A DNA stretch of 64,000 bases, from assembly GCA_030673845.1 (NCBI GenBank), contig JAUTCQ010000013.1:102001-166000 (forward strand). Direction: 5' to 3'. The translations under genes were made by a program, and so were the position numbers. Shown here in pieces: positions 53,341 to 55,225 of the stretch. Within the stretch, counting starts at the first letter, position 1; the number at the start of each line of letters is the position of its first letter. The stretch comes from Verrucomicrobiota bacterium JB022 (GTDB lineage: Bacteria; Verrucomicrobiota; Verrucomicrobiia; Opitutales; Oceanipulchritudinaceae). A model generated the notes under the pieces. It worked only from the letters and a program-made list of their open reading frames with translations. It was not told the origin of the DNA and made no database searches.

Positions 53341-53415
53341 GATTATAGCGTCTCATGGAGTGGACAAAGCCGGATGTTAGTGCTCTTTATTCGAGCGTTG
53401 GCAGGTCTGATGGTG

Positions 53416-53594
53416 GCACCCCGCCGGGGTGCATTCTTGATCCTGAAGAACCCGGGGTGCCGGTCCGCTGGAGCGGACCTCAACCCCGCGCTAAGAGCTG
53501 GCAAGCCTCTGGCTTGCTGGATGATGCAGCATCCCGAAGGGATGCCATCCCTTAGCCTGCAGTTGAGGTTCGCAAAGCGAACCGACACTGCAGG
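53416..53594. repeat. Array of five short perfect hairpins
   Basis: Five stem-loops with 7-bp perfect stems and 3-4-base loops occur within 180 bases. They are GCACCCC/GGGGTGC (53416-53432), GGTCCGC/GCGGACC (53462-53479), GCAAGCC/GGCTTGC (53501-53517), GCATCCC/GGGATGC (53529-53545) and GGTTCGC/GCGAACC (53567-53583). The second is enclosed by CGGGGT/ACCCCG (53453-53458, 53483-53488). The fifth is enclosed by CCTGCAGT/ACTGCAGG (53556-53563, 53587-53594). The arms differ in sequence between units while geometry is constant, so structure seems to be what is kept. There is no coding frame, T-run or transposase. It lies between converging thiE and prmA, with about 55 bases left before prmA. Confidence 0.75.
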
Positions 53595-53650
53595 TAACCG
53601 TCCGAAGAAGGTGCTGTTTCCAGCGCCTCGTTACAGCTCTCGCGCTCCTC

Positions 53651-54541
53651 TTACTCGCCGCGGCGAAGGAGCACGTCGGCCCAGTCGTTTTCGGTGCGCT
53701 GGTCGATGTAGACCGCGCCTTCGGGCCAGGCCTTTTGGGCGGCAGCTTCGAAGAACGCGCGCACTTCGTCGACTTCCTTGGCCAGAATGCCGCTCAAGGC
53801 GAGGTCGCCACCGGGCTTCACCGTGGCCAGTAGCTGGTCGGCGTAGGCCATGAGCACGTTGGCGAGGATGTTGGCCATCACGAGGTCGGCCGGGCCGCGC
53901 TCGAGGCCTTCGGTCAACTCCATCCAGAGGAATTCCACCTCGTCCTTCACCTCGCACAGCTCGGCATTTTCGATGCTGATGCGGACGGATTCAGGGTCGT
54001 TGTCGAAGCCGAAGACAGGCTGGTAGCCCAGCTTTCGGGCGGAAATCGCGAGAATGCCCGAGCCGCAACCGGCGTCGATCACGTTACGCTGGGCCACGGT
54101 ATCGCCCCAGCGGTCGCGCGCATCAATCAGGCGGCGGATGCAAAGGCGCGTCGTCTCGTGATTACCGGTGCCGAAGGCCATGCCCGGGTCGAGGTAGACG
54201 ATCTGATCGCCCGCTGGCAGCGGATAAGTATCGCGCTCCCACACCGGCACGAAGTGCAGCCCCCGGTCGCTCCAGGCCTTGAAGTGCAGCTTGTAGGCGT
54301 CCTTCCAGTCCTGATCGTCGAGCTGGCGCACCTCCGACGGCTCGGGCAGGCTAGGCACGGCAGAGCGCAAGGCGGCTTGTTGCTCGGCGGCTTCCTCCTC
54401 GGAGGCGAAGAAGCCACGCAGCTCGTTCTGCTTGGTCTTGTCGTTTTCGTAGAGCATCCAGAAGGTCTGATACTCTTCGCAGAAGTATTCTTCGAGCCGA
54501 TTGGCCTGCTCGGCCGAGACGGGGAAACGCAATTCGATCAT
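53651..54541 (-). CDS. prmA: Ribosomal protein L11 methyltransferase
   Basis: SAM-dependent methyltransferase that trimethylates L11. The 296 residues comprise an N-terminal substrate-recognition domain (LRFPVSAEQANRLEEYFCEE on) and a Rossmann methyltransferase domain: YLDPGMAFGTGNHETTRLCI, VIDAGCGSGILAISARKLGY (motif I), FGFDNDPESVRISIENAEL, DLVMANILANVLMAY (NILA) and GGDLALSGILAKEVDEV. An in-frame extension to 54730 is not family-like and overlaps vapC. It is the minus-strand neighbour of the vapBC pair. Confidence 0.93.
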   Translation of the reverse strand: MIELRFPVSAEQANRLEEYFCEEYQTFWMLYENDKTKQNELRGFFASEEEAAEQQAALRSAVPSLPEPSEVRQLDDQDWKDAYKLHFKAWSDRGLHFVPVWERDTYPLPAGDQIVYLDPGMAFGTGNHETTRLCIRRLIDARDRWGDTVAQRNVIDAGCGSGILAISARKLGYQPVFGFDNDPESVRISIENAELCEVKDEVEFLWMELTEGLERGPADLVMANILANVLMAYADQLLATVKPGGDLALSGILAKEVDEVRAFFEAAAQKAWPEGAVYIDQRTENDWADVLLRRGE

Positions 54542-54569: not shown

Positions 54570-54950
54570 TCAGGCGGGCAAGGCGGCACGCACATCGGTC
54601 TGACCGAAATCGTTGCCCTTGTAGAGCAGCGGGGCCGCCTTGTCTTGCGCCAGCGCATAGGCAAAGCAATCGCCAAAATTGAGCGAGGAAAATCGTCGGT
54701 AAGCTTCGCGCGCCAACAGGGCCTGGTCATGGGTCAGCGGCTCGATCTGCACCCCTACTGCGGCTAGCAAGCGGTCAACGATCTGCCCCGCCGCCTCGCC
54801 TCGCTTACGGATCATCACGGCCGAAAGCTCGACCAGTGTGGCGGCCGACATCACGGGAAGCTCTGCCGCCAGTAGCGCCTGCAAAAACCGCTCGGCCTCC
54901 GGCTCCTGCTCCAGAATCGCCACTATGGCGGAGGTATCGACCACGATCAT
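54570..54950 (-). CDS. vapC: VapC-type PIN domain toxin
   Basis: A 126-residue PIN ribonuclease. It opens MIVVDTSAIVAILEQEPEAE with the first catalytic Asp5. ATLVELSAVMIRKRG carries the acidic residue of the second motif. LNFGDCFAYALAQDKAAPLL supplies the third, and YKGNDFGQTDV the last acidic site. VapC toxins cut tRNA or rRNA. Its ATG overlaps the antitoxin stop by four bases. All four acidic residues are present, so it should be active. Confidence 0.9.
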   Translation of the reverse strand: MIVVDTSAIVAILEQEPEAERFLQALLAAELPVMSAATLVELSAVMIRKRGEAAGQIVDRLLAAVGVQIEPLTHDQALLAREAYRRFSSLNFGDCFAYALAQDKAAPLLYKGNDFGQTDVRAALPA

Positions 54951-55225
54951 GCGCGGGAACGAGGCAAACCCTCGGCGTCGTAAAGAATCTCGTCGGCAGG
55001 GCGTGGATCCACCACCGGCAAGCGTTGAAACTCCGCCACCAGCGTCTGCACTGCGGTGCGACGATTACCCTCCAGAGCCCGCCGTTGCTCGCGCTCACGT
55101 TCCAGACGCTCAGCGATGGCCTCCGTCACGGCCTCGGTCAGGCTCTCACCGGTCAACTCGGTCAACTCCCGGGCCAAACGGTGGGCGCGCTCGCTTTTGA
55201 TGTTGATCTGCATGGACGGCGGCAT
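54947..55225 (-). CDS. vapB: VapB-type antitoxin (Rv0623-like)
   Basis: A 92-residue antitoxin. The N-terminal MQINIKSERAHRLARELTEL and TGESLTEAVTEAIAERLERE are a typical DNA-binding VapB/PSK-type segment, followed by a flexible C-terminal toxin-binding part (PVVDPRPADEILYDAEGLPR). The start could be ATG at 55225 or, four codons later, at 55213; the second gives the commoner family N-terminus. No Shine-Dalgarno sequence is seen at either. A palindromic site lies immediately upstream. Confidence 0.85.
   Translation of the reverse strand: MPPSMQINIKSERAHRLARELTELTGESLTEAVTEAIAERLEREREQRRALEGNRRTAVQTLVAEFQRLPVVDPRPADEILYDAEGLPRSRA

Follow-up and report, generated by a model that had tools for sequence, protein, structure and literature searches.

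A hairpin array between thiE and prmA as a candidate REP/BIME-like repeat with an HUH-Y1 transposase partner

The hairpin array that separates thiE and prmA in Verrucomicrobiota bacterium JB022 is likely a dispersed, non-autonomous element of the REP/BIME kind: an inverted dimer of a three-hairpin unit that would be mobilised in trans by an HUH-Y1 transposase. We observed directly its structure, the covariation of its arms, its dispersal and the frame that its units form around the transposase gene, and from these we infer its mobilisation.

Anatomy of the array

The array lies in a window of 64,000 nucleotides (the whole stretch of DNA that was analysed), in the gap between the convergent genes thiE (PF02581, 52616-53251, + strand) and prmA (PF06325, ~53651-54535, - strand). 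A preliminary description of this DNA had pointed out five perfect 7-bp stems in a row with loops of 3-4 nt, two of them enclosed by outer stems, and all of these are present (Table 1): the loops measure, in order, 3, 4, 3, 3 and 3 nt, and in the outer stem around hairpin B, six of seven positions pair, the remaining one being C-C. The same description took the hairpins for five units of equal geometry, which they are not; two kinds of hairpins, simple (A and C) and bulged (B), are arranged as a mirrored dimer, A-B-C/C'-B'-A', from which A' is missing.

When reverse-complemented, the second half of the array aligns with the first, and the array is thus an inverted dimer: its five hairpins are five-sixths of a dimer of a ~105-nt unit, A-B-CTA-C. 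The unit opens with hairpin A, which is simple and has a GTGG foot. A spacer of 18 nt in the window copy (by eye, roughly 15-30 nt elsewhere) separates it from hairpin B, whose 7-bp outer stem encloses an internal loop (TGTC/TCAA) and an inner stem of 6-7 bp. The linker CTA follows, and then hairpin C, which is again simple. Dimers of the window's own genome have the order A-B-C/C'-B'-A'. Compared by eye with other copies, the element is longer than the five-hairpin stretch first noted, and homology to copy L002 stops near the right end given in Table 1 (also by eye). The right-hand A (A') is gone from the window copy, which is why five hairpins were noticed instead of six. The site expected for A', 53610-53627, holds an unrelated hairpin (GGTGCTG-TTTC-CAGCGCC, with one G-T pair), which may belong to the prmA 3' end.

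Table 1. Coordinates of the element and its parts within the window
Feature	Position	Strand	Remarks
Whole element as kept in the window	~53346..53607		left outer arm and inverted dimer, truncated on the right; by eye against copies L002-L020
Left outer arm TAGCGTCTCATGGAGTGGAC	53346..53365	+	one of the inverted outer arms common to many copies
Hairpin A with GTGG foot (53413-53416)	53413..53432	+	perfect 7-bp stem at 53416-53432 (53416-53422/53426-53432); counterparts in other copies and beside transposase genes
Hairpin B, alpha arms	53451..53490	+	outer stem 53451-53457/53484-53490, internal loop, perfect 7-bp inner stem at 53462-53479 (53462-53468/53473-53479)
CTA linker beside B	53491..53493	+	TAG foot when read on the - strand; conserved in unit alignments
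Hairpin C	53501..53517	+	perfect 7-bp stem GCAAGCC/GGCTTGC
Dimer centre	53518..53528		palindromic in some other copies
Hairpin C', right half	53529..53545	-	perfect 7-bp stem GCATCCC/GGGATGC
Right-half linker	53553..53555	-	TAG on the + strand, CTA on the - strand
Hairpin B', right half, beta arms	53556..53594	-	outer stem 53556-53562/53588-53594, perfect 7-bp inner stem at 53567-53583 (53567-53573/53577-53583)
Start of right spacer	53595..53607	-	A', expected beyond as in copy L002, is missing; based on L001 against L002

Since G+C-rich intergenic DNA favours stems, an array of this kind might reflect chance or base composition. Counting non-overlapping stems of at least 7 bp, of which the real 191 nt carry five, we found none in 4848, one in 150 and two (the maximum) in 2 of 5000 dinucleotide shuffles, and among 191-nt samples taken across the 64-kb window in steps of 20, every sample with two or more such stems overlaps the array. 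Folding z-scores were -6.4 and -5.5 for RNA on the two strands and -7.1 for DNA on the + strand. Shuffles and z-scores together rule out chance or composition, to which, given also the existence of copies and of covariation, we assign a negligible probability.

In both RNA and DNA folds of the + strand, each half is folded locally, and on the - strand C pairs with C' in the middle. A stable fold on both strands, placed 3' of both genes, would suit a bidirectional terminator or 3'-end protector of thiE and prmA that acts at the RNA level and is kept for that role. However, inspection of the sequence revealed no clear T run after the hairpins, and such a role leaves unexplained the dozens of copies in unrelated places, the fixed mirrored architecture and the flanking of transposase genes (see below). 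A terminator or insulator is superfluous for explaining the anatomy, and we consider it improbable that the array is kept as one; termination or protection of mRNA 3' ends at thiE-prmA may be a later use of it.

Dispersed copies in the same genome and in a congener

When 201 bp of the array served as query against the window's own genome (4.35 Mb in 25 contigs), 49 rows came back at E<=1. Eight of them repeat a place already matched on the opposite strand, so that the distinct places number 41, of which 38 reach E<=0.0014; the best match besides the window itself shows 93% identity over 194 bp. The flanks of these copies are mutually unrelated, excepting outer arms of the type TAGTGTCTCGTTGAGTGGAC, which are common to many copies and form inverted repeats that often start with CTAG. 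Several copies are without outer arms. In copies L003, L005, L016, L020 and others, the initial CTAG seems to be, or to abut, the stop codon of the neighbouring gene, a position that may hint at the target or cleavage site.

Inverted-repeat arms starting with CTAG, found at many copies in this genome, are what one would look for if the array were cargo of a MITE belonging to some other transposon family (e.g., IS630-like, with a CTAG target) and the arms were its terminal repeats. But the outer-arm consensus, with up to three mismatches allowed, occurs at only three places in this genome, all of them beside arrays, and at none in the congener; the several copies that have no arms, and the units beside transposase genes elsewhere, which by eye show none, also speak against such a MITE, and we regard it as very improbable.

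A second genome of the same genus (the congener) contains at least 136 units, out of 137 scored candidates. In the stretches of it that were examined, 25 of 27 close '-+' unit pairs are spaced 100-107 bp apart, which is the frame C'-B'-A'/A-B-C without a gene. On one contig (C27:1-16000, locus L084), dozens of units surround a single transposase gene, as '-+' pairs at intervals of 300-700 bp. Integron-like cassettes were considered for these clustered units and rejected, as close neighbours alternate in orientation (27 '-+', 14 '+-' and 4 '--'). The congener's thiE-prmA gap holds a shrunken relic of the element and no clean empty site.

Compensatory change in the hairpin arms

The B arms of the window's own genome fall into three sets: alpha (CCCGGGG/GGTCCGC), beta (CCTGCAG/GGTTCGC) and gamma (CCGGTGG/GGACGC). 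Across 59 of its 67 units (eight degenerate ones being omitted), 94.6% of alignment cells pair, 12 of 21 pairs have changed on both sides, and 167 cells carry double changes; the covariation score of 0.341 was reached by none of 500 shuffles, with slid versions scoring 0.025-0.041. For 50 units of the two species aligned with MAFFT, 93.8% of cells pair and the score is 0.400 (slid versions, 0.014-0.078), a single position being occupied by C-G 15 times, G-C 14 times, U-A 7 times and A-U 3 times. The alignment of the congener used 41 of 86 units, picked by hand. An additional alignment, A3, agrees on covariation, but had been fitted to the structure beforehand.

The number of further pair types did not rise above that in shuffles (427 of 500 for the own-genome set, 161 of 500 for the two-species set and 17 of 500 for A3). 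In the own-genome set, this fits the existence of few arm sets. The covariation cells are not independent events; both they and the sampled genomes are related. Covariation in the three sets supports the selection for pairing that the preliminary description had proposed.

The two halves of a dimer differ in their arms. Both halves could be classified in 21 of the 26 close dimers of the window's own genome (five remained unclassified), and these comprised 8 alpha-beta and 13 alpha-gamma combinations and no dimer with like halves. With different arms, each half would fold on itself and not into one long hairpin, and unlike arms might in this way avoid long cruciforms, a matter that Di Nocera et al. 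discuss for REP heterodimers (PMC3733652). In copy L014, the outer stem of one B has an alpha arm on the left and a beta arm on the right, and is broken as a result; this chimeric hairpin is a sign of exchange between units.

Units flank transposase genes of one type

The window's own genome contains three Y1_Tnp places (C6:35003, C3:223256 and C13). All three proteins match PF01797 above its cut-off, and those of C6 and C3 also match NF033573 above cut-off; the C13 protein matches a REP-transposase model below cut-off, and its gene is without a unit. The C6 and C3 proteins, together with those of the congener, carry DHVH, WQ and Y---Q--HH, and Y---Q--HH is present at all 70 loci. The associated protein is an IS200-like HUH-Y1 transposase of ~150 aa, whose nearest solved structures are ISHp608 and related transposases. 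As judged from its motifs (DH[IV]H, WQ and Y---Q--HH) and a length near 148, it would belong to TnpA_Y1 subclass 1.2, for which the same signature, a median length of 148 and 1.7 copies per genome have been reported (PMC6006769). At E<=1e-20, the gene was found in 92 of 286 genomes sampled from the window's class, in 1-7 copies per genome among the best 13 candidates of each. Some genes of this type (at L138, L143 and others) contain one in-frame stop, mostly TAG, and are probably decayed. A genome of the same family (G003) has 49 Y1_Tnp matches, many of them partial or within longer proteins, against 2 to 13 in four other genomes compared.

The congener has three genes of the subclass 1.2 type (C27, C14 and C2). 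On C27 and C14, the gene has C'-B'-A' immediately upstream and A-B-C immediately downstream, such that the units face outward; on C2, the matches on either side of the gene are weak and have this same orientation. In the window's own genome, the C6:35003 gene is not in the outward frame, having one direct unit upstream and two direct units plus one inverted unit downstream, and only weak matches surround the C3:223256 gene.

A model built only from units of the window's own genome (R1) was run on 30 transposase loci, which included this genome's C3 gene and one gene of the congener and of which five were cut by contig ends. At E<=0.01, 22 of the 30 genes had a match no more than 250 bp away and the other eight had none in that range; at 12 loci the nearest elements on both sides face outward, and nearest elements overall were outward in 33 cases and inward in 5. 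At L129 and L140, an outward pair rests on an element that is not the nearest, and these are not counted among the 12. A second model (R2), built from matches at transposase loci, was applied to a held-out set of 40 other loci, one per genome, with thresholds of E<=0.01 for R2 and E<=0.1 for the Rfam family RF01687 (Acido-Lenti-1 RNA). One or the other matched within 250 bp at 32 of these 40 genes and neither at eight, with an outward pair at 19, and nearest elements within 150 bp faced outward in 45 of 47 cases and inward in 2.

The association also holds by genome. R2 matches were present in 64 of the 92 genomes with the gene versus 18 of the 194 without it (at most 18 candidates scored per genome; p = 2.6e-25, ignoring relatedness), an association that is partly circular because some of these genomes supplied training loci for R2. 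RF01687 is free of this circularity: at E<=1e-4, it was found in 76 of 92 genomes with the gene, the other 16 having none, versus 20 of 194 without (at most 20 candidates scored per genome; p = 3.0e-34, likewise uncorrected for relatedness).

Among control loci, 80 prmA loci (439 kb) yielded no R1 match at E<=0.01 and one at E<=1 (E = 0.73), which is the relic in the congener. Seven loci of Y---NP (class-2) genes had no R2 match at E<=0.01; within the same control set, R2 matched at three of five Q--H-type loci and at none of six unclassified loci. Three plasmid-borne IS200/IS605 loci showed no unit match.

Beyond the phylum, a plasmid of Persicobacter sp. JZB09 (Bacteroidota) carries a gene with the motif YIQNQKFHH and, on both of its sides, A, B, CTA and C in outward orientation; the flanks score 31.7 and 29.2 bits with R2, and one of them 35.7 bits with RF01687, just under that family's cut-off. 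A gene on a plasmid of Bernardetia (L301, also Bacteroidota) has no unit match. It lies amid repeated, simpler GCAGCTAYGCAGCT palindromes, which are possibly another repeat partner of subclass 1.2.

RF01687 covers part of the unit

The preliminary description knew of no family with this layout, and on this point it has to be corrected, as RF01687 already describes the B-C part of the unit, under the heading of a small RNA. It is the best Rfam match on the window array, at 25 bits versus a gathering cut-off of 37 (best in the window's own genome, 27.5 bits). Being below the cut-off, the window copy is not assigned to the family, whereas cognate units elsewhere pass. The only other Rfam family matching the array was mir-266 (19.4 bits versus a cut-off of 80).

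The RF01687 alignment spans a short hairpin B, CTAA and hairpin C. The family scores above its cut-off on both sides of the gene at seven of 70 genes (L141, L144, L231, L234, L241, L262 and L268; locus L122 was covered through L050, which is the same place), and at the held-out genes, 18 of 38 RF01687 matches fall on an R2 match of the same strand. In RF01687 copies from less closely related genomes of the phylum (L271, L272 and L276), a hairpin resembling A can be seen by eye in front of B. On these alignments, we take RF01687 to be a model of the B-CTA-C part of this kind of unit. Of the best 30 copies of RF01687 in the phylum, only two lie within 1.5 kb of the gene, which is as expected of dispersed repeats and by itself no support for the association.

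RF01687 was put forward as a candidate RNA (PMC2864571). A 2026 paper describes its function as little known and suggests a role, in Tannerella, in regulating protease genes upstream of it (PMC13298647); copies in a Vibrio genome were listed in 2023 (PMC10059132). If the units were genes of such a trans-acting small RNA, which the transposase merely spreads or neighbours, the family's place in the RNA catalogue would be accounted for, and covariation fits RNA and DNA equally. Yet outward pairs around one type of transposase gene, mirrored dimers and high copy number fit the end of a DNA element better, and we judge the small-RNA reading quite improbable; RF01687 may instead be a mark of mobile DNA. 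Our search, outside of which lay most subscription journals, found no published link of RF01687 to a transposase, or of REP to subclass 1.2.

We lean towards a broader statement, namely that Acido-Lenti-1 would be not an RNA family but part of a DNA recognition unit that crosses phyla, and that subclass 1.2 would have a compound, three-hairpin REP. The arms of this REP would drift freely, though in compensation, so that the enzyme reads geometry and a few unpaired letters, and its mirrored heterodimers would be amplified in Verrucomicrobiota and occur in Bacteroidota.

Comparison with known repeat-transposase systems

Among the options listed in the preliminary description was a REP/BIME-like mobile element, and this was right in kind; the check on copies elsewhere that it had called for found pairing kept, copy number high and a transposase associated. 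As in the GTAG kind of REP/BIME (REPIN) with its class-2 RAYT and REPtrons, there are intergenic palindromes in high copy number, dispersed singly or as inverted dimers (often heterodimers), with foot letters beside the stem and repeats around a single-copy HUH-Y1 gene. A GT[AG]G foot directly 5' of a stem is present as GTGG at A of the window, and [N]TAG stands beside B on the other strand, with other copies varying. The unit described here, however, has three hairpins, and its protein has Y---Q--HH versus Y---NP; because the Y---NP motif is absent, we do not place the array in the GTAG/class-2 RAYT kind.

The associated protein resembles TnpA_Y1 subclass 1.2 in motifs, length and low copy number. 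The 2018 survey by Corneloup et al. tabulates that subclass with REP as 'no' and Cyanobacteria and Bacteroidetes as main hosts (PMC6006769), in contrast to the gene described here, which occurs widely in the window's class and in most cases is accompanied by a repeat. RF01687 resembles the unit in covering B-CTA-C, and differs in being catalogued as an sRNA and in a model without A, the inner stem of B or the dimer. IS200/IS605 elements (IS608 and ISDra2) share the transposase superfamily with the associated gene, though not with the array, whose units are inverted and compound and far outnumber the gene. In TIRtrons/TIRYT, tyrosine transposase genes are flanked by inverted repeats, some of them amplified in the genome (Di Nocera et al., 2013; PMC3733652). 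By their description, on which this comparison is based, they share the inverted repeats flanking a tyrosine transposase gene; there may be overlap with them, and also with the GTAG-17, -19 and -20 families of O. terrae, and part of the repeat-transposase link may already have been drawn in that paper.

By analogy, the element would work like a REP/BIME with its REPtron. In single-stranded DNA, the hairpins would fold; the transposase would recognise their shape together with conserved unpaired letters (the GTGG and TAG feet and the TGTC/TCAA loop), and by HUH-Y1 chemistry would nick and rejoin the DNA, such that units are copied or moved in trans. IS608/ISDra2 and the REP/RAYT systems provide precedents for folded single-stranded recognition and for movement in trans (PMC6006769).

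An HUH-Y1 subclass that was tabulated without a REP in 2018 thereby gains a repeat partner, making a direct test of cutting possible, and RF01687 gains an explanation; if the latter is true, RF01687 matches are to be read first as mobile repeats. The element also offers a natural experiment on how single-stranded DNA is recognised by shape, its arms differing from half to half and from species to species under a constant geometry.

Open reading frames and neighbouring genes

Two open reading frames run through the array, 53343-53588 (- strand, 81 aa) and 53374-53853 (+ strand, 159 aa), and neither has a Pfam match at E<=0.01; such arrays may give rise to spurious annotated proteins. Beside prmA, at 54570-55225 on the - strand, lies a VapBC-like pair consisting of a PIN-domain toxin-like gene (PF01850) and, directly upstream of it, an Rv0623-type antitoxin-like gene (PF07704).
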